Below, piece by piece: positions 6,402 to 40,487 of a stretch of DNA of 43,892 bases. How positions within the stretch are numbered: position 1 is the stretch's first letter; every line of letters starts with the position of its first letter. The notes below the pieces were generated by a model. The model saw only the letters and a program-made list of their open reading frames with translations, had not been told where the DNA came from and did no database searches. Both the position numbers and the translations under genes were made by a program. Origin of the DNA: Lysobacterales bacterium (lineage in GTDB: Bacteria; Pseudomonadota; Gammaproteobacteria; Xanthomonadales; Marinicellaceae); NCBI GenBank assembly GCA_020442665.1, contig JAGRJP010000024.1:1-43892 (forward strand), read 5' to 3'.

Positions 6402-7132
6402 TAAAGATAAACCAACTCAACCTCAAAATTGAAAATAAAATTCTGATTAAGAACCTAAGCCTTCAATTGAATAAAGGTGAGTTTTGGGCAATTATTGCAC
6501 GCAATGGGATTGGTAAAACCACCTTGCTTAAAACAATTGCAGGCTTTACTCCATCTGAACCATCGCTAGTAAAGATTAAAGGAAGAAATATCACAGAATA
6601 TTCTGTTTTGGAACGCGCTCAAAAAATTTCATATCTAGAGCAATTACAAGAGGAAGGTTTGGATTGCACCGTCAAACAAGCTGTTTCTTATGGAAGATAT
6701 CCTTGGCATAAATTCAAACTCGATAACTCTGACGAAACAAAGCTGATTGAAAAGGCATTGATGGATATGGACTTACAAGATTTACAGAATAAAAATCTGA
6801 AAAAACTTTCCGGTGGTGAATTGAGAAAAGTCGATATTGCGACCATTTTGTCTCAGAACAGTGAGATTATGATTCTGGATGAACCACTCAATCACCTGGA
6901 TGTTGCCTTTCGTTATCACTTAATGAAACTGCTGAAAAATCTGTCACAAAAAAAATTAATCATAATGGTGACTCATGATATACAATATGTGAAAGAGTAT
7001 TGCAGTCATGTTCTTATGATTTCAAACAAAGGAAAGGGGATTTCCGGCAAGGTTTCTGAGATTATGACTGCTGAAAATGTTAAAAATATACTGGAGATTG
7101 AGCCTGTTGGTGAAATATTTAAATCATTATGA
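6398..7132 (+). CDS. ABC transporter ATP-binding protein, FepC/BtuD type, with altered Walker A
   Basis: The 244-residue ATPase partner of the preceding permease. It has Walker A ARNGIGKT (34-41), signature LSGGE (137-141), Walker B IMILDE (Asp161, Glu162) and the switch histidine in VTHD (His193). The first Walker A glycine is alanine here (nt 6497-6499); lysine and threonine are intact, so activity is likely retained. The start chosen is ATG 6398, which gives an ATGA overlap with the permease; an upstream in-frame extension to 6308 lies inside the permease gene. The end overlaps the next gene by 4 nt. It would energise import of a cobalamin, haem or siderophore-like compound. Confidence 0.87.
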   Translation: MIKINQLNLKIENKILIKNLSLQLNKGEFWAIIARNGIGKTTLLKTIAGFTPSEPSLVKIKGRNITEYSVLERAQKISYLEQLQEEGLDCTVKQAVSYGRYPWHKFKLDNSDETKLIEKALMDMDLQDLQNKNLKKLSGGELRKVDIATILSQNSEIMILDEPLNHLDVAFRYHLMKLLKNLSQKKLIIMVTHDIQYVKEYCSHVLMISNKGKGISGKVSEIMTAENVKNILEIEPVGEIFKSL

Positions 7133-8898
7133 ATAGCAAATTGTCGTTCAGCGAGATTGTCATTCCCATCATCAAGCACCTCTTTCACGAGGGGATTATT
7201 GATAAAAAATCTGCGGATAAAATTATCAGAAATTCAAAATTGATTAAGATGAGTTCCGTACATCCTTACATCAACATTTCTGACTATAACTTAAAAAGTC
7301 TGAAAACCGGCAAACCGATTTCCATTGAGTTTATTACACATTTTGTAGCCAAGATAAACAACCTTGGTTATTTAAAAATTGACCCGACAAAAGTGAATGT
7401 CAGCAGTGTGACCTCTGCGGTTTCACAGGCTTATGCCACCAAACACAAGATTCTTCCGGTTGATATCTCCGATACTACAGTCACATTTGCTGTTGCGAAT
7501 CCCTATGATGACTCCTGGGTGGAAGAGTTACAAAGAATCTTACGACTGAAAGTGATAAGAGTTCACTCCAATCCTTTAGATATTCAGCGGTTGTTATTCG
7601 AGTTCTATGGTGTCAATAAATCAATAAAACATGCACATAAACAGCATAAAAACCGAACCATTGATTCAATTCTCAACCTTGAGCAATTGGTTAAACTAGG
7701 CTCTAAAAATGATTTAAGTGCGGATGATCAACACATTATCAATATTGTGGATTGGTTGTTGCATTATGCGTTTGAACAACGTGCCAGTGATATTCATCTG
7801 GAACCTAAAAGAGAAAACTCCATCATGCGTTTTCGTATTGACGGACGTTTGCATAATGTCTATGTTTTGCCGACGATGGTGATGGCAGCTGTGGTCAGCC
7901 GTATCAAAATTCTTTCTCGCATGGATGTCGCCGAAAAACGTAAACCTCAGGATGGCCGTATTAAAACATTGACCTCAGAAAGCAAAGAAGTTGAACTTCG
8001 TGTCTCAACCATGCCAACGACATTTGGCGAAAAATGTGTGATGCGTATTTTTGACCCCGATGCTGTTGTTGAAAAATATCAGGACTTGGGAATGAGCGAT
8101 TCTGAAATCGACCAGTGGTTACAAATGATTTCTCGTCCCAATGGCATTGTTTTGGTTACCGGTCCGACAGGTTCCGGTAAAACTACAACTCTATATTCAA
8201 CATTGAAAAACCTGGCAACAGAGGATGTCAATGTTTCTTCAGTTGAAGATCCGATTGAGATGGTGTTTCCGGCTCTCAATCAAATGCAGGTCAACTCAAA
8301 AATCGGCGTGAATTTTTCCAGTGGTATTCGTACATTGATGAGGCAAGATCCGGATATTATAATGGTTGGTGAGATTAGGGATTTGGAAACGGCGCAAATG
8401 GCAGTCCAGGCATCTTTAACCGGACATTTGGTTTTATCCACACTGCATACTAATGATGCGCCTTCTGCAATCAACCGTTTACTGGATTTGGGAGTGCCTG
8501 ATTATTTACTTCGTTCAACACTGACCGGTGTGACTGCACAAAGATTGGTTAAGTTGCTTTGTGAACATTGTAAAGAAGAAACCACTGTTTCTGATGAAGT
8601 CTGGACATCACTAACTCATCCCTGGAATATTGCAAAACCCGAAACCATTTATGAAAAGAATGGTTGTCTGGAATGCAGAAATACCGGATATCACGGACGA
8701 ATTGGTGTTTTTGAAATTATGCCGATTCATGCGGATTTACGAGGTATGATTAAAAACAGCATTCCATCGGAAGCTGTGGCTGAACAAGCCTATAAAAGTG
8801 GGATGAAACCACTGAGAGTTTCTCTCTCTGCATTAATTAAATCCGGTAAAACTTCAGTTGAAGAAGCCATTAAACTGGCTCCACCGGAATATAGCTAA
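7129..8898 (+). CDS. GspE/PilB-family secretion or pilus-assembly ATPase
   Basis: A 589-residue hexameric-type ATPase. An N-terminal domain (to about 170, related to the GspE/MshE N-terminal fold) precedes the catalytic core with ASDIHLE, Walker A GPTGSGKT (345-352), the Asp box region SSVEDPIE, Walker B with IIMVGEIRD, and the His box STLHTND. A zinc-binding four-cysteine knuckle is complete (Cys478, Cys481, Cys513, Cys516). Such proteins power type II secretion or type IV pilus polymerisation at the inner membrane. No gsp or pil partner is adjacent; instead it overlaps an ABC ATPase gene by 4 nt (ATGA). It could be the single GspE of a dispersed system or a second PilB. MshE-like c-di-GMP control is possible but the N-terminus is divergent. 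Confidence 0.88.
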   Translation: MNSKLSFSEIVIPIIKHLFHEGIIDKKSADKIIRNSKLIKMSSVHPYINISDYNLKSLKTGKPISIEFITHFVAKINNLGYLKIDPTKVNVSSVTSAVSQAYATKHKILPVDISDTTVTFAVANPYDDSWVEELQRILRLKVIRVHSNPLDIQRLLFEFYGVNKSIKHAHKQHKNRTIDSILNLEQLVKLGSKNDLSADDQHIINIVDWLLHYAFEQRASDIHLEPKRENSIMRFRIDGRLHNVYVLPTMVMAAVVSRIKILSRMDVAEKRKPQDGRIKTLTSESKEVELRVSTMPTTFGEKCVMRIFDPDAVVEKYQDLGMSDSEIDQWLQMISRPNGIVLVTGPTGSGKTTTLYSTLKNLATEDVNVSSVEDPIEMVFPALNQMQVNSKIGVNFSSGIRTLMRQDPDIIMVGEIRDLETAQMAVQASLTGHLVLSTLHTNDAPSAINRLLDLGVPDYLLRSTLTGVTAQRLVKLLCEHCKEETTVSDEVWTSLTHPWNIAKPETIYEKNGCLECRNTGYHGRIGVFEIMPIHADLRGMIKNSIPSEAVAEQAYKSGMKPLRVSLSALIKSGKTSVEEAIKLAPPEYS

Positions 8899-14338: not shown

Positions 14339-16654
14339 TCACTTTTTCTTAGCTTTGGAAAACGCTTGAGCCAAACTACCCATGGAATTAATCTTCTGAG
14401 AAAAATGACTCCGTTTGTTCGGTGATTGATTGTCTCGTTTCTTCTCCGATTGGTTCTTAGGTTTCACCGATGCTTGTGGAGTCACTCCACTTTTAGCAGA
14501 TAAAGAGATTCGTTTACGAGGAACATCGACTTCCAGAACCGTCAATTTCAGAATATCACCGGCTTTAACAACTTCCGAAGGATCTTTTACAAAGTTATCA
14601 GATAGCTGTGAAATATGAACTAAACCATCCTGATGCACACCAATATCCACAAAAGCTCCAAATGCGGTGACATTGGTAACAACACCTTCGAGTTTCATCC
14701 CCTCTTTTAAATCTGAAATCGTTTGCACCTCATCATCAAAAACAGCTGTTTTAAACTCTCCACGAGGGTCTCGCCCGGGCTTCTTCAACTCAGCAATGAC
14801 GTCCTTAATTGTTTCCAAACCATAATCATCATTAATGAAATCACGAGGATTCAGTTTATTGAGTTTATCTGATTTACCGATAACGTCTTCTATTTTACAG
14901 TTGAGCGAATTTACAATTTTCTCTACTAGAGGGTAGGATTCAGGATGAACTGCTGACTGATCCAAAGGTTGCTCGCCGTTTCTGATACGTAAAAATCCGG
15001 CACATTGAGTGAACATTTTATCACCCAAGCGTTTAACATTAAGAAGTTGCTGTCTATTGACAAAGCGTCCATTCTCATCCCTATAATTGACGATTTCCTG
15101 AGCAACAGAATCACTGATTCCTGCCACATACTTTAATAATTCAGTTGAAGCAGTATTGACATCAACACCTACAGAGTTCACACAATCTTCAACGGTATCT
15201 CCCAGAGCCTTGTTCAGTTGGGATTGGTTCACATCATGTTGATATTGACCAACTCCTATGGCTTTTGGCTCAATTTTCACCAGCTCAGCCAACGGATCTT
15301 GCAAGCGACGCGCAATTGAAACTGAGCCACGATAACTCACGTCCAAATCAGGAAATTCTTTAGCCGCTGTTTCCGATGCGGAATAAACAGAAGCCCCTGC
15401 TTCTGAAATCATAATTTTTTGGGCTTTAAGATCTTTATTCTGCTTCAATATTTCAGCCATCATCTGATCAGTTTCTCTGGAAGCTGTGCCATTGCCGATA
15501 CTAACCAGTTCAATATCGTATTTCTTTATCAGTGAAACGACTTTAACTTTAGCCTGTTCCCATTGTTTCTGTGGTGGATGCGGAAATATAACATCTTTGT
15601 CGAGTAACTTTCCTGTTTTATCAACAATCACCACTTTCACTCCGGTTCGATAACCCGGATCAAGACCCATTGTCGCTTTGCTTCCTGCCGGAGCGGCTAA
15701 TAAAATATCTTTCATGTTGCGACTAAAAACTTTAATCGCTTCAGTGTCTGCCAGCTCCCGTATTTGATTGGTCAATTGCAATGAAAGTCTCACATGAAGT
15801 TTTGCAACCCATGACAGCTCGACTGTTCGCATCAGCCATTCAGAACTCTGAACATCCCAACCCAAATGCTGTATGATTTTTGTGATTGCCGGATGTTGTT
15901 GGTTATCTGCTACCAATACATCAATCTTTAAACTCAAAAAGCCTTCATTTCTGCCACGCAATAATGCCAAGGTGCGATGGGATGGAATTTTATTCAGCTT
16001 TTCATTGAAGTCGAAATAATCTTTAAATTTAATCGCTTCTTGTTCTTTTGAAGTAACAACCGAAGATGAAATGATAGCATTTTCCCACATCCAGTCGCGC
16101 AAATCCTGAATCAAATTGGCATTCTCACCAATATCCTCCAAAGCAATTTGTCTCGCACCTTCTAGTGCTTGTTCAACTGTTTCAATGCCTTTTTCTGCAT
16201 CGATATATTTTTCTGCCAGATTCTCAATATTAGATTTCGGATTATTGATGAGATCTTTGAGTAATTGTTCCAGTCCGGCTTTTCGGGCAATCTGCGCCTT
16301 GGTTTCGCGTTTCTTTTTATACGGCAAATACAAATCTTCCAGTCGTGTTTTGGTATCAGCAGCAAGGATTTCTTTTTCCAGTTCACTCGTCAGTTTGCCT
16401 TGCTCTTTTATCAAGTCCAAGATTGAAGAGCGTCTTTCATCCAGCTCACGCAAATAAATTAGTTTCTCCTCTAACTGTCGCAACTGAGTATCATCAAGCC
16501 CACCGGTCACTTCTTTACGATAACGAGCAATGAAAGGAACAGTGTCTCCAGAATCCAGTAATTGGACAGCATTTTCGACTTGATTTGGCTTAGCATTGAT
16601 GAGTTTTGCGATAATTTCTGCGTGTGTCATAGCGTTTGTTTGGTAATTTTTCAT
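14339..16654 (-). CDS. tex: Tex-family RNA-binding transcription accessory protein
   Basis: A 771-residue cytoplasmic nucleic-acid-binding protein, close to the 773 of E. coli YhgF/Tex. Recognisable parts are the N-terminal Tex region with SGDTVPFIARYRKEVTGGLD, the YqgF-like RNase H-fold core starting near LGLDPGYRTGVK, helix-hairpin-helix elements around VGVDVNTASTELL and a C-terminal S1 domain (GVVTNVTAFGAFVDIG, about residue 660), then a basic tail with KKRDNQSPNKRSH. Tex acts in transcription and RNA metabolism and has been linked to toxin-gene expression in Bordetella. Either ATG 16654 or ATG 16630 (8 codons later) could start it; neither has a clear ribosome-binding site. Confidence 0.93.
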   Translation of the reverse strand: MKNYQTNAMTHAEIIAKLINAKPNQVENAVQLLDSGDTVPFIARYRKEVTGGLDDTQLRQLEEKLIYLRELDERRSSILDLIKEQGKLTSELEKEILAADTKTRLEDLYLPYKKKRETKAQIARKAGLEQLLKDLINNPKSNIENLAEKYIDAEKGIETVEQALEGARQIALEDIGENANLIQDLRDWMWENAIISSSVVTSKEQEAIKFKDYFDFNEKLNKIPSHRTLALLRGRNEGFLSLKIDVLVADNQQHPAITKIIQHLGWDVQSSEWLMRTVELSWVAKLHVRLSLQLTNQIRELADTEAIKVFSRNMKDILLAAPAGSKATMGLDPGYRTGVKVVIVDKTGKLLDKDVIFPHPPQKQWEQAKVKVVSLIKKYDIELVSIGNGTASRETDQMMAEILKQNKDLKAQKIMISEAGASVYSASETAAKEFPDLDVSYRGSVSIARRLQDPLAELVKIEPKAIGVGQYQHDVNQSQLNKALGDTVEDCVNSVGVDVNTASTELLKYVAGISDSVAQEIVNYRDENGRFVNRQQLLNVKRLGDKMFTQCAGFLRIRNGEQPLDQSAVHPESYPLVEKIVNSLNCKIEDVIGKSDKLNKLNPRDFINDDYGLETIKDVIAELKKPGRDPRGEFKTAVFDDEVQTISDLKEGMKLEGVVTNVTAFGAFVDIGVHQDGLVHISQLSDNFVKDPSEVVKAGDILKLTVLEVDVPRKRISLSAKSGVTPQASVKPKNQSEKKRDNQSPNKRSHFSQKINSMGSLAQAFSKAKKK

Positions 16655-16955: not shown

Positions 16956-19091
16956 CTAAAAACAACTGTATTCGTAAAACTTTTTGTCCACAGTTGAACC
17001 GTCGCAATCCCAGTATATATATCCGTCATCACTCGCATGAGGAGTCATTTTGATGTATTTTCCGGACAGTGCAGAAATATCGTCGCCGATGTAGATGATG
17101 ATTTCACCATTTTTGGGGTTGTAAACCAGTTCATCGGATTGATCGAAGCGGTCGGATATGGATTCCGTATTTGGGAATGTTCCATTTTGGATGTAGTTGT
17201 CTTCAATCAGGTATTTTTCTTCATTAACGGAATAAATTTTATCAGTAACTTTAGCACGGACTGTGTAGTCCCGATAGGATGGTATGGCATAGGCTGCCAA
17301 AATTCCTACGCCGGCAATCATAAGCATCCCTCCATTGGAAGATAACTGCTCGATTGGGCTATATTCATAGTTCAAACTGAACATCAATGCCTCTTTGGAT
17401 GAATCCAAAGCAAAACCAAAACGTCCGCTTTTGGGTAAATTCAGTTGATGAGCCGTTGGCAAAGCAAACAAATCCAGCTCAGTATGGCTGTAACTGGCAA
17501 GGTATTGAAGAACATTTAAATATCCATAATAAATATCCCGGGGAGCATCACGAACTTCTTTGGTATAAGCAATAATTGAATGAGCAAAATCTGTATGCTG
17601 TTTATTTTTTAACCAATCTTGTAGTTTTAATTGATTGCTATAGTTGGCTCTATCTGCCAAAACCTGAGGATTATATGCTTGAATGAAATAGTCTCCTTCG
17701 ATTAAATAATAACCGTATTGTTTCACGTTCAACAATTTTTCAATTTCGCTTTTTTCTTTTTCAGAAGGAAAGATATGATTGATGAATTTATCAATCGAGA
17801 ATCGGGTTTGATTGATTGGAACTCCTGCCAGTTCTTTGGTAGCAGACTCGGTTTTAAATGCCTTTGAAACCTTCTCAACAATTAACTTATGAGCATTCAT
17901 ATCGTTTATTTTGCTGGCAAACCAAGTTCCTGATTCATCTGTAATAACAAGTAACTTCTGCCCATAAGTATTCATGATTTCTGACAAACTGACACCCAGA
18001 TACTCATTCACTTGCTGGATTTTTTCATCGACAACTTTTCGGATTTCAACACTTTCTGCATCATTCATTGATAATATCAATTCATAAAATTGCTTGAGTT
18101 GTTCTTTATTCGGGACAGCAATTTGCCATACACTTCTTGGTGTTCCGGCTGTGTGTATGTCAAGTTCGGAATCCACCCTGGGAAGAAACTGTCTGAAGCC
18201 TTCATCCGGCATTTGCAATCTCACAATAAAGCGACTTTTGCCTCCAATCGCTGAAGTTCCTACCCAAAGATATTCCATCTGCTCCAAAGCAAACTTGGAA
18301 ACGATTGGTTTCACATGAGGAGGAATAAAATTTTTATTGTTATGTATCAATGATTTGAAATTAACCCAGAGTTCCAGATTTTTACCGGCTGCATCAACAC
18401 TATTTTCAAATTCAAGAATGGGTTTCAAATCATCCGCATATTTCTGCTGTGACAGTATGGATTTCAGTTCATCCTTGCTGCTAGACAAACCGGCGAACAA
18501 TAAAAGTCTTCCATCTTTTTCATTAAAATAGATATACGTTGGCGTCATAGAAATGGCTAACTTGCCAAATCCTTCATTATCGAAATTATCAATAATTTGA
18601 ATTTGTCCACCGGATTTGTTTTTCCATAACTTGAGTAAAATATCGAGTTGTGACAAAGAAGTGTTTCTAAGGGTTGTAGCAATCAAAGTGTTCGGAACCG
18701 GTCTTCCATCAGCTGATTTAACAAACGCGACTTCAAATGGAGAAACCATATTTTGAATAATCGTTTCAACGAGTGGACGCATATCACTTGGTAAGAGTTT
18801 TAAATAAGAATCCAGCAATCCTTTTTTAAAACTATCAATTTGTTGCACATGATTTTGATTTGATTGTACAGGGTATAAAACATCCGCTTTTTCTTCAAAA
18901 AACATCTGCCAGATTGTAGGTATTCGCAAATAAGCAAAAGTTTCTGCCGGCAGTTTATTTCTCAGCCATGAAACATTTTGTATTTCTTTAGGTGGAACGG
19001 CACTCTCAACAGATTGAGAACTCGTTGAATTATCGCACGCAGTTAGAAAAACCATTAGTGCAAAAAAGGATGCCAAAATTGTTCTTTTCAT
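16956..19091 (-). CDS. Lipoprotein with DUF3352-like body fused to a C-terminal type IV pilin-like domain
   Basis: A 711-residue protein. It starts with a lipoprotein signal (lipobox LTAC, Cys19) and a body of about 560 residues resembling DUF3352-type exported proteins (family assignment tentative). Near residue 584 it switches to a pilin-like sequence: VGILAAYAIPSYRDYTVRAKV matches the alpha-1 region of type IV pilins almost position by position. It is followed by KYLIEDNYIQNGTFP and a tail with ITMTP-like KMTPHASDDG, WDCDG and a last-but-one cysteine, so Cys696 and Cys710 could form the pilin D-region disulfide. The prepilin peptidase site and Glu5 (residue 587 is Gly) are absent, so it is not processed as a pilin. 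It lies 52 bp after the CvfB-like gene on the same strand. Confidence 0.78.
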   Translation of the reverse strand: MKRTILASFFALMVFLTACDNSTSSQSVESAVPPKEIQNVSWLRNKLPAETFAYLRIPTIWQMFFEEKADVLYPVQSNQNHVQQIDSFKKGLLDSYLKLLPSDMRPLVETIIQNMVSPFEVAFVKSADGRPVPNTLIATTLRNTSLSQLDILLKLWKNKSGGQIQIIDNFDNEGFGKLAISMTPTYIYFNEKDGRLLLFAGLSSSKDELKSILSQQKYADDLKPILEFENSVDAAGKNLELWVNFKSLIHNNKNFIPPHVKPIVSKFALEQMEYLWVGTSAIGGKSRFIVRLQMPDEGFRQFLPRVDSELDIHTAGTPRSVWQIAVPNKEQLKQFYELILSMNDAESVEIRKVVDEKIQQVNEYLGVSLSEIMNTYGQKLLVITDESGTWFASKINDMNAHKLIVEKVSKAFKTESATKELAGVPINQTRFSIDKFINHIFPSEKEKSEIEKLLNVKQYGYYLIEGDYFIQAYNPQVLADRANYSNQLKLQDWLKNKQHTDFAHSIIAYTKEVRDAPRDIYYGYLNVLQYLASYSHTELDLFALPTAHQLNLPKSGRFGFALDSSKEALMFSLNYEYSPIEQLSSNGGMLMIAGVGILAAYAIPSYRDYTVRAKVTDKIYSVNEEKYLIEDNYIQNGTFPNTESISDRFDQSDELVYNPKNGEIIIYIGDDISALSGKYIKMTPHASDDGYIYWDCDGSTVDKKFYEYSCF

Positions 19092-19126: not shown

Positions 19127-19147
19127 TTGAACCAAACTTTGGTTCAA
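19127..19147. promoter_or_regulatory. Perfect 10-bp palindrome between cvfB-like and pilin-fusion genes
   Basis: Arms TTGAACCAAA (19127-19136) and TTTGGTTCAA (19138-19147) around a single central base. On the - strand it begins in the TGA stop of the CvfB-like gene and lies 36 bp upstream of the lipoprotein-pilin ATG. As DNA it looks like an operator for the downstream gene. As RNA it could fold into an 8-bp stem with a 5-base loop, but no T-run follows, so an intrinsic terminator is less likely. Confidence 0.5.
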
Positions 19148-19977
19148 GTTTTAGCTAAACGAATTGTTTCTTTGCTTATTTCAATCAGCTTCTTCTTGTA
19201 TAAAGTGCCAAGGGCACGCTTATAACTGGCTTTAGAGACATTCCACTTGTTATAAATTTCTTGAGGTGGAGTTTTGTCGGTCATGTGGGAAACACCTTGA
19301 TTTTCTTTTAAATCATCAAGGATTCTTTGTGCCAAATCATCCAGTTTTTGTGAGTCCGGCAATACAAATCCAATATTAATTTTACCGTCATCTCGAATTT
19401 GTTTGATAAATCCTTTCAGTTGTTGCCCCAATTTGATGGGTTTGAAAACTTCAGAGTGATGAATAAGTCCCAAATGTGTTTGGTTGATTACTGCTTTAAA
19501 ACCAAGTTTGGACTTTCCACAAATTAGCAAATCAACTTCCTGATTGACTTTGAAGTCGGTATTTTTTTCAGATAGGAATTTACTCAATCGCAAAGAACCG
19601 ACCAATCGATTGGATGCTTTATCACTGTATAAATAAATTGAATAATACAATCCCGGAAAAACTTTATAGGGTTGTTCGGCATAAGGAACTAGCAACTCTT
19701 TGGGCATTCCCCAGTCAAAAAAAGCCCCAAATTTATTCACATCGGCACATTTTAAATAAGCACATTGATGCAATTCAATCTTGGGACTAGCCAAAGTGGC
19801 AACCGCTTGGTTATTATCCAGATAAACAAAGACTTTAAGTTTCTCACCCACATTATATTTTTCAGTCAAATTTTTTCCAAAACACGAAAGTGGGCCGTGT
19901 TCTTTTCCATCAAATATTATTTCATTATCAGAAACATCGAGTATTTCTAAAGCGTTTAATTTCCCTGGGGTGATCAT
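19144..19977 (-). CDS. CvfB/YitL-family S1 RNA-binding protein
   Basis: A 277-residue protein with the layout of CvfB (YitL): several S1-like OB folds (residues about 1-210) and a C-terminal winged helix, seen in QEIYNKWNVSKASYKRALGTLYKKKLI. Characteristic strings are NKFGAFFDWGMPKELLVPYAEQ and KLGFKAVINQTHLGLIHHSEVF. In Staphylococcus the homologue binds RNA and affects virulence-gene expression; gammaproteobacterial members are largely uncharacterised. It is divergent from hemF with a 169-bp gap and is followed on the - strand by the pilin-fusion gene. No clear ribosome-binding site precedes ATG 19977. Confidence 0.87.
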   Translation of the reverse strand: MITPGKLNALEILDVSDNEIIFDGKEHGPLSCFGKNLTEKYNVGEKLKVFVYLDNNQAVATLASPKIELHQCAYLKCADVNKFGAFFDWGMPKELLVPYAEQPYKVFPGLYYSIYLYSDKASNRLVGSLRLSKFLSEKNTDFKVNQEVDLLICGKSKLGFKAVINQTHLGLIHHSEVFKPIKLGQQLKGFIKQIRDDGKINIGFVLPDSQKLDDLAQRILDDLKENQGVSHMTDKTPPQEIYNKWNVSKASYKRALGTLYKKKLIEISKETIRLAKT

Positions 19978-34352: not shown

Positions 34353-35438
34353 TTAAACTTGGTTTTTTCTTCTAGAAACTAAAACGATACCAAAGAATAG
34401 TACCACTAATGCCAACAAGTTATTAACAGGAACAACTACCAACACGCCGGCAATCGTTTGAATACCGAAGTTATTTGAATTGTCAATATCATTATCAGCC
34501 GTAATCGTAACCTCAGGTTTAATCATTCCACCAGAAATAATTTTTGATGATAGAGAACAACTTAAAGAGTCGCTTGAGGCAATATCCTGTACACTCAACG
34601 AACTAATAGCGTCCCTTTCCAAAGTGTTTGTTCCATCATCACAAGAAAGTTCTTGTAACTTCAAATTACTTCCAATTTGAGCATTTAAAACTACATTGGT
34701 TGCATTCCCGGAACCCATATTTGTAACAACGAGATTGAATTGCAATTCATCGTGCAATTTAAGTTCATCACCATAGTCCTCAACTGAAAAGTCAATGGAT
34801 AAGTCTGAACCGGCCTCAACACCTTGCACAAACATGCAATTAGTATTTGCTACCAAATCTATTCCATGAACTTTTAATGTTCCTGAAGTGTATCTGGCAT
34901 CGACAGAATTACTCAAATCATCAATTTTTTCATAGAATTGTGTCAAAAACACACCGTCAGCTAAAGAAACAACATCCGATAAGCCATTATCAGTAATATC
35001 GAGAATCCCATTTGAGCTGAACGATTGTGTTCCTGAAAACTCATTCCCGGCACCTAAAACTAATCTCAGACCATCATCCCCGGCATTAGAGTCGCTGAAG
35101 TAAATTACAGCTTCAGAGAGATAACTCCCTGAAATAGTTTCGATAGTGACATTATTATATTCCACTCCGGTAATCATTGAACCGTTGAAACAATGTGCTT
35201 GAGTGTTATTTGCACTATCTTTGCCATCCCAAGATTCTACATGATATTGCGAGAAATCAAAGGTTACAAAAGAGTTAGGCTGGCTATTGACTGACTGAGT
35301 GGAGTTTGTTCCTTCTTCACCCACAGATTTTGATAACACTGTTTCAATTTGAACACCTGATTTTTCCGCAAATACCGAACACACGCCAAAAGCCATCATT
35401 GTGGCAAATAGAGCAATATTGTGTTTGAGTTTAATCAT
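34353..35438 (-). CDS. Surface protein with DUF11-like domain and IPTL-like C-terminal anchor
   Basis: A 361-residue exported protein. A signal peptide ends near VFAEK (about residue 25). The middle has an N-terminal domain ending around residue 200 that includes VTFDFSQYHVESWD, then a DUF11/CARDB-like Ig fold with LQFNLVVTNMGSGNATNVVLNAQ and SLSCSLSS (about 220-325). The C-terminus VVPVNNLLALVVLFFGIVLV then RRKNQ matches the Pro-containing, hydrophobic, Arg-ended layout of IPTL-CTERM relatives. It is on the opposite strand to, and between, rluD and pgeF. Its stop lies 18 bp from the rluD stop. Confidence 0.78.
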   Translation of the reverse strand: MIKLKHNIALFATMMAFGVCSVFAEKSGVQIETVLSKSVGEEGTNSTQSVNSQPNSFVTFDFSQYHVESWDGKDSANNTQAHCFNGSMITGVEYNNVTIETISGSYLSEAVIYFSDSNAGDDGLRLVLGAGNEFSGTQSFSSNGILDITDNGLSDVVSLADGVFLTQFYEKIDDLSNSVDARYTSGTLKVHGIDLVANTNCMFVQGVEAGSDLSIDFSVEDYGDELKLHDELQFNLVVTNMGSGNATNVVLNAQIGSNLKLQELSCDDGTNTLERDAISSLSVQDIASSDSLSCSLSSKIISGGMIKPEVTITADNDIDNSNNFGIQTIAGVLVVVPVNNLLALVVLFFGIVLVSRRKNQV

Positions 35439-39065: not shown

Positions 39066-40487
39066 TTAATCAAAACCATTTTTGAAGATAATATCGTTGT
39101 CGCCCGTACCCTTGAGTCTTGCGACTGCAATTTTTTCGACTGCGTTATTGTTTGTAGCAGTACCTGTCAATAACACATTATCATTCGGGTCTATTGTTAC
39201 AGCGTATGAAATATTTACAACCTGAGATCCTACTCCATTAAAGGTAGTATCTGACCTGCCATTTCCGTATGCACCAAAGTTGTTTTCTATGGAGTAACTG
39301 CTTGTTCCGTTTGTGACACTTATAGAGTTCAGTCGCATCACTCCCATGTTGATGTACGACACATCTTCAGGATAGATGTTACCAGTTAATACGAGTTTGA
39401 AATCAGGGTCAGTAAAGACAGCATCCCTGCATGAGGAGTTTTTACTCAAGTTTGGATCAAGGTTAAAATTAAAAATATCACCTACCGGTTCACCGGCATT
39501 GGTATCTACTGTATTAATATAGGTAATTGCGCAGTCATCATCTTGGCTCCCCTGATGATTGTCATACCCTACAAAGATAAACTCATCGGAGCCTGGTTTT
39601 TTGATAGCATTATTTACAAATGAATCCCTACTGTCATTGTAAACATATTTTCCATCACTTGAGAAACTGGTATCGAGACTTCCGTTAAAGTTCATTTTTA
39701 TAATAACAGGTGATTCGGAATTATCGCTCTCATCAATACTTCCTAATATCCAGAATCCATGAAGTATTTTATAAGCTCTGGAACTATTCCCCATGTCAAT
39801 AATTAACTTGCCGTTAGTACCAAATCCTGTATCTAATGAACCATCACTTGCCAGAATCTTTGTTACTGAAATGTCGGTACCACCGGAACTATTCGCTGCA
39901 TAACCGGCAATATAGATAGAACCACCCGTATAAATCGCTGAGAAGGCAATATCTTCATTAGTTCCTCTGTTATCAAAAGCAATTGTTTTTTGACCATTTG
40001 TGCCAAAACTCAGAACTGGATCACCAGATGAATCCAGCTTAGCGACAGCAAAATCAGTATCATCATTGTTGAAATGAGCATATCCGATTGCATATATATT
40101 TCCGGAATCATCGACTAAAATATCATGAAGAAAGTCTTTATGTGTTTCCGTCCCTCTGTTAAAAGCGATGATTTCAGTACCGCTAAATCCAAAACTGGTA
40201 TCGATATTACCATTATGTAATATTTTAGTAACGAACATATCTGTTGTATCTTCGTTCGTATGATACGCATGACCACCAACGAGCATGGATGCATCTCCAC
40301 TCCCCGAATAGGAATAAATGGCTGTGCCAAACTCATCGCCTTCACCCGTGGGTGGAATAGTTCCAAGATTTTGTTCTAATAAAACCCTGCCATCGCTATC
40401 GAAAGTTTGATCCAAAGTACCAGCACCTTGTTGGGCAAAAGACAATGTTGTAGTTAGTAATGACAAGCTAAAAATTAAATGTTTCAT
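39066..40487 (-). CDS. Secreted delta-60 repeat protein with C-terminal IFKNGFD tag
   Basis: A 473-residue exported protein. After a signal peptide (cut near SFAQQ, about residue 19) come repeats of the delta-60 type (DQTFDSDGRVLLEQ; SGNIYAIGYAHFNNDDTDFAVAKL; DPVLSFGTNGQ; DGSLDTGFGTNGKL; NGSLDTSFSSDGKY), which form beta-propeller-like surface domains. It ends in GDNDIIFKNGFD, nearly the same tail as the beta-helix protein at 24741-26543. A GGAGAATAA ribosome-binding site precedes ATG 40487. It is divergent from the ToxR-like regulator gene, with the 11-bp repeat array between them, so it may be that regulator's target. Confidence 0.8.
   Translation of the reverse strand: MKHLIFSLSLLTTTLSFAQQGAGTLDQTFDSDGRVLLEQNLGTIPPTGEGDEFGTAIYSYSGSGDASMLVGGHAYHTNEDTTDMFVTKILHNGNIDTSFGFSGTEIIAFNRGTETHKDFLHDILVDDSGNIYAIGYAHFNNDDTDFAVAKLDSSGDPVLSFGTNGQKTIAFDNRGTNEDIAFSAIYTGGSIYIAGYAANSSGGTDISVTKILASDGSLDTGFGTNGKLIIDMGNSSRAYKILHGFWILGSIDESDNSESPVIIKMNFNGSLDTSFSSDGKYVYNDSRDSFVNNAIKKPGSDEFIFVGYDNHQGSQDDDCAITYINTVDTNAGEPVGDIFNFNLDPNLSKNSSCRDAVFTDPDFKLVLTGNIYPEDVSYINMGVMRLNSISVTNGTSSYSIENNFGAYGNGRSDTTFNGVGSQVVNISYAVTIDPNDNVLLTGTATNNNAVEKIAVARLKGTGDNDIIFKNGFD

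Follow-up and report, generated by a model that had tools for sequence, protein, structure and literature searches.

Pilins of the type IV family cross the inner membrane through α1N, with the N-terminus inside. In the minor pilins CofB and TcpB, which carry a large extra domain, the pilin part is N-terminal and processed. Leaderless proteins with pilin-like sequence have also been described: XAC3805, of the GYF_2 type, is encoded far from the pil genes and is probably no bona fide pilin (PMC10333488, PMC4960238). Another kind of membrane protein, TfpY, probably binds pilins and promotes assembly without itself entering the pilus (PMC11841053). Here, we describe a gene of a Lysobacterales bacterium that encodes a lipoprotein with a C-terminal pilin domain. 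It occupies positions 16956 to 19091 (minus strand, as for all features of this gene) of the window, by which we mean the whole 43,892-nucleotide stretch analyzed (contig JAGRJP010000024.1), between tex (14339-16654) and a CvfB-like gene (19144-19977). The open reading frame of 711 codons starts with ATG, has no internal stops, and is matched by full-length homologs.

This protein ends, over its last ~120 residues, in a true type IVa pilin domain. The PF00114 (Pilin) profile matches residues 611 to 710 of the full protein (E value of 1.3e-7, 33 bits against a cut-off of 22), matches residues 578 to 711 alone at 6.4e-9, and matches in 25 of the 26 fusion members scanned; the NCBIfam pilin model PRK10574 also matches, from residue 589, at a score far under its cut-off. 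A phmmer search of the PDB with the C-terminal part retrieved gonococcal and meningococcal PilE, with alignments starting at residue 589 and E values of 6e-10 to 7e-9, and a profile built on 26 fusions finds PilE at an E value of about 1e-24. For residues 569 to 711, AlphaFold2 predicts, at a pLDDT of 72, four strands and two helices, one of which lies at the place of pilin α1. The underlying alignment comprised seven real pilins besides a single nearly identical fusion, and the presence of these pilins makes the model partly dependent on the homology. With this model as the query, Foldseek places pilin or pilus entries at all of ranks 1 to 13, the first three being N. gonorrhoeae pilin (E values of 5.7e-5 to 2.2e-4), with gonococcal PilE on top. 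A preliminary description, made from the letters of the window, had proposed that this C-terminus is pilin-like, and both the profile search and the predicted structure bear this out; a model without the pilin helix and strands, which would have spoken against the proposal, was not what the prediction returned.

Profile, alignment, and model together support a pilin head at residues 620 to 711 (16959-17234). W694, Cys696 (17004-17006), and Cys710 (16962-16964) are invariant among the aligned fusions, in agreement with the C-terminal two-cysteine loop of pilins first proposed for this pair. Ahead of the head, alignment shows that pilin α1 is kept at residues 594 to 619 (17235-17312), which correspond to pilin positions 12 to 37, with a core at positions 13 to 32. 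The original statement that the sequence follows α1 closely thus holds for positions 13 to 32, whereas positions 1 to 12 are replaced. By alignment and hydropathy, residues 582 to 600 (17292-17348) form a Gly/Ser-rich stretch in place of pilin positions 0 to 12, followed by VGILAA, without leader, Phe1, or Glu5. Just ahead of the helix lies a conserved junction motif, YEYSPIE in the window protein (residues 575 to 581; 17349-17369) and YEYSxLE as the consensus across fusions, with E581 present in 28 of 31 aligned sequences. None of 41 fusion copies has the prepilin motif G/F-T-L-I-E, and Glu5 is missing from all but L033, where a chance Glu occurs in a protein with no leader. Aligned to true pilins, the fusions lack FTLIEL between a Gly and a Met. 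The lack of a prepilin peptidase motif and of Glu5, initially noted for the window protein, is therefore a property of the family.

The part of α1 that remains is highly conserved. A18, A20, P22, and Y24 are each found in 31 of 31 sequences, G14, D26, Y27, and R30 each in 29 of 31, and mean pairwise identity among fusions is 0.63 for α1 positions 13 to 32, compared with 0.24 for the head and 0.23 for α1C. Such strong constraint on positions 13 to 32 fits contact with pilins. Since the coiled-coil-tethered heads of relatives (see below) manage without the α1 motif, its retention in the fusions argues for contact and not for folding alone, which is probably insufficient to explain the conservation.

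To span a membrane, however, the fusion helix appears too polar. The best 19-residue Kyte-Doolittle window near α1 has a mean of 1.74 (1.14 to 2.45) in 41 fusions and a value of 1.63 in the window protein, versus 2.92 to 2.96 in five true pilins, and the summed unweighted biological insertion scale gives +3.4 for fusions versus about -2.4 for true pilins. The membrane-spanning hydrophobic α1N by which type IVa pilins are recognized is thus absent. Because the carrier upstream of the helix is already exported, a spanning helix would put the head and its invariant Cys pair in the reducing cytoplasm. A helix start that is not transmembrane-like means instead that the pilin domain should be periplasmic, which agrees with the invariant Cys pair. 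Judged by these hydropathy scales, the fusion α1 is most likely not transmembrane and the pilin domain lies wholly in the periplasm.

Residues 1 to 19 (19035-19091) form a lipoprotein signal peptide, with the lipobox FLTA/C19 followed by Asp-Asn. Cys19 is invariant in 26 aligned fusions, and signal peptide and lipobox Cys together identify the protein, by sequence, as a lipoprotein; the early view that the pilin-like part sits behind an exported lipoprotein is confirmed, the carrier being ~570 residues long. In two distant members, L075 and L080, the signal peptide is a plain one, and the case of L084 is doubtful. Asp follows the lipobox Cys in 10 of 10 copies from the genus of the window, while several distant members have another residue at +2. 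Under the E. coli Lol rule, Cys-Asp-Asn is an inner-membrane retention signal, so the window protein is predicted to stay at the inner membrane, with its pilin domain facing the pilus base or the pilin pool. By the known rules, the lipid anchor would in any case keep the protein on the periplasmic side of a membrane.

The N-terminal part (residues 36 to 568; 17388-18986) has many invariant residues, and searches of Pfam, NCBIfam, and PDB sequences gave no family match; we regard it as a conserved exported family without a match in the libraries searched. AlphaFold2 modeled the full-length protein, from a two-sequence alignment, with a pLDDT of 32. The exported DUF3352 (PF11832) proteins, which are of similar length and have an opening LPxxTxAYxxxP that is alike by eye, were rejected: no fusion matches this profile, and there were no matches in 60 genomes of the phylum either. 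Internal duplication of the N-terminal part was also rejected, as hhalign gave no support and the sole high score (n2 versus n3) came from overlap of the cut segments. The preliminary description raised the question of whether the two parts occur elsewhere as separate adjacent genes. No such arrangement was found: among 369 genomes of the class (Gammaproteobacteria), the N-terminal part is always joined to a pilin part, the one exception (G163) being truncated at the end of its contig, and a 398-genome sample of the phylum yielded neither an N-terminal part without a pilin part nor any fusion outside the class.

The search for the same fusion in relatives, in turn, was productive, with copies in ~40 genomes from many families of the class. 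Of 60 relatives from the same genus, family, or order, ~28 have a full-length fusion (24 to 97% identity) and two more have one cut by contig ends; in the class sample, 14 of 369 genomes carry it, counting that of the window. The 97% identical copy belongs to an independently assembled metagenome-assembled genome, Lysobacterales bacterium HKST-UBA248 (L039). These ~40 independent copies rule out that two genes, one for a lipoprotein and one for a pilin, were fused artificially by an assembly join or a missed frameshift; nothing was found in favor of such an origin of the open reading frame, which is almost certainly wrong.

We inferred a tree from the C-terminal parts of 41 fusions and 40 pilins of related genomes, an alignment whose few columns limit resolution. 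The tree separates the two groups; the exceptions are two rows, long or weak, namely fusion L018 and pilin L151 of G091. The free tree needed three changes, yet constraining the fusions to one clade improved the likelihood by 3 log units (p-AU of 0.57), and several separate fusion origins were rejected accordingly. A single ancient fusion followed by losses is compatible with these sequences and is not rejected by them. Viral contigs that we searched encoded ordinary prepilins only.

Type IV pilus genes (PilM or PilT) accompany the fusion in each carrier that we checked. Within the class sample, all 14 carriers give a strong PilM match (E value below 1e-30), compared with 275 of the 369 genomes overall (P = 0.015, uncorrected for phylogeny or genome size), and PilT is present in each of the five related carriers that lack a strong PilM hit; the complete relative G011 lacks PilM, PilT, and the fusion alike. 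This co-occurrence is weak, as PilM is present in three quarters of the sampled class and both genome size and kinship confound the comparison. Some piliated close relatives (G013, G019, G022, and G025) lack the fusion, which is therefore not essential for pili, and in three genomes (G034, G095, and G254) the fusion is the sole PF00114 protein, so a PF00114 pilin is not a required partner.

No conserved neighbors or operon accompany the fusion gene across carriers, and it is not physically linked to pilus genes. The window does encode a GspE/PilB-type ATPase with an MshEN domain (7129-8898, plus strand), which the preliminary description had mentioned as an orphan not near the fusion gene; we found no evidence linking the two, and the fusion gene has no conserved neighborhood. 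Elsewhere in the window are genes for a protein with DUF5122/SBBP beta-propeller repeats (39066-40487, minus strand) and a DUF11 protein (34353-35438, minus strand).

We also compared the fusion α1 with the pilins of the same genome. The fit is significant overall (P = 5e-5) but vanishes within lineages, and coevolution of the fusion α1 with its own pilins was rejected because the overall signal comes from a Tyr19 shared across one family and from one genome, G091. Throughout that family, fusions (L009 to L033) and pilins (L110 to L125) have Tyr at α1 position 19, where others have Ile or Val; in G091, fusion L075 and the genome's own pilin L151 share the unusual α1 letters TDYMKRSKV. Such shared letters, which are not significant within groups, could reflect either gene conversion or matched contact.

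Pilin heads on other tethers are encoded in several related genomes. Directly downstream of the fusion, G023 (L059:7350-7775, minus strand) and G028 (L131) encode a 140-residue lipoprotein with a pilin head and no α1N. Its head resembles fusion heads (up to 36%) more than it does pilins, and the protein looks like a partial duplication of the fusion head with its own lipid anchor. In G006, G021, G027, G046, and G056 (loci L178, L179, L180, L184, and L171), short membrane proteins are encoded in which a single transmembrane anchor and a coiled-coil or linker precede a PF00114 head (E value of 1e-11 for the G027 protein) without α1 motif or leader, and these genes have no obvious conserved neighbors. 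A protein of ~870 residues in G256 (L170, on G256:C5) has a membrane anchor, a pilin head, and then what by eye are ankyrin-like repeats. Finally, G033, G035, G042, G051, and G053 encode GYF_2-type proteins of the XAC3805 kind, some with RDD, in which a C-terminal pilin domain has a hydrophobic α1 and no leader (L172, L174, L175, L177, and L183; the domain scan covered the G051 protein, and a GYF_2 [PF14237] match is present in L172).

What might a pilin domain do on such a carrier? PF00114, Foldseek, the export signal, and the lipobox uphold the original picture, in which a membrane-tethered carrier bears a pilin fold that is not suited to prepilin processing or to normal polymerization. The preliminary description had suggested that such a fold could cap, sense, or block pilus or pseudopilus assembly. 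Tentatively, and with a little less than an even chance of being right, we read the protein as a type IV pilus accessory factor built on a nonpolymerizing, membrane-tethered pilin, with pilins or the pilus machine as its periplasmic targets. Held by its lipid on the periplasmic side of a membrane, the pilin domain would face the pilus base or the pilin pool, where pilins, or a component of the machine that binds them, may offer a docking site for the retained α1 segment and the head. A domain docked in this way could not be extended further, given the absence of Glu5 and of the hydrophobic stub and the bulky domain ahead of the helix, and would act as a primer, chaperone, brake or limiter, or sensor. 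The protein is probably a helper or brake of the pilus machine and not a building block. Incorporation into the filament as an unusual minor pilin, despite the N-terminal carrier, would make sense of the kept positions 13 to 32 but is very unlikely when no copy has a prepilin site, α1 is not transmembrane, and a 570-residue domain stands where a filament needs a free N-terminus.

The lipid anchor would also suit a surface or outer-membrane lipoprotein whose pilin domain works extracellularly, in adhesion or in binding to the pili of other cells. The distant members without Asp at +2 could be sorted to the outer membrane, but Cys-Asp in all copies from the genus of the window signals inner-membrane retention by the E. 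coli rule and two members have a plain signal peptide, which makes this role improbable. Exaptation without any pilus role, in which an old fusion left the pilin domain as a stable periplasmic C-terminal module, e.g., for dimerization or ligand binding, is a realistic possibility that we nonetheless hold short of probable. It is favored by the missing link to pilus genes, by a scattered distribution with losses in piliated relatives, and by an N-terminal part that never occurs alone, so that both parts may form one structural unit. It does not readily explain why α1 positions 13 to 32 are kept far better than the head when other tethered heads do without the motif, or why type IV pilus genes are present in every carrier that was checked.

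If the accessory-protein reading is correct, the fusion would amount to a naturally occurring, membrane-fixed pilin with a dominant-negative or chaperone-like effect, and to a direct handle on pilus length and on the switch between extension and retraction. A broader proposal, speculative and in our view rather unlikely, is that a gammaproteobacterial set of tethered nonpolymerizing pilins, comprising the lipoprotein fusion and the lipid-, coiled-coil-, and ankyrin-type heads, binds pilins or the assembly platform in the periplasm and controls when a pilus is started, stopped, or kept in. The window lipoprotein would then be a terminator or base cap, since a large domain on the N-terminus of a subunit keeps any further one from being added below it. 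The pilin fold seems, in these proteins, to be used as a detachable periplasmic module, and leaderless PF00114 matches should for this reason not be annotated as pilins.

Leaderless pilin-like proteins are known from the GYF_2 type and XAC3805, but an obligate, widely conserved lipoprotein fusion with a nonspanning α1, or any lipidated or lipoprotein-fused pilin, was not found in the literature searched. Like CofB and TcpB, the fusion combines a pilin with a large domain, but in reversed order and with no processing site. TfpY/FimB accessory proteins, as membrane-bound partners of type IV pili, offer a functional analogy only, having three transmembrane helices, another predicted fold, and no pilin domain. 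With the XAC3805-like GYF_2/DUF4339 proteins of Xanthomonadales, the fusion shares a leaderless C-terminal PF00114 domain behind an extra domain. Those proteins have an N-terminal GYF_2 domain (some with RDD) and a hydrophobic stretch running into α1, probably N-in/C-out, whereas the fusion is exported and lipid anchored, has no transmembrane α1, and gives no GYF_2 (PF14237) match in the window protein or 26 fusion members. From type IVa pilins (PF00114; PilE/PilA), it differs in lacking the class III leader, Phe1, and Glu5, in its polar α1N, and in the 570-residue lipoprotein ahead, while sharing with them the head fold, the Cys-closed C-terminal loop, and α1 positions 13 to 32.
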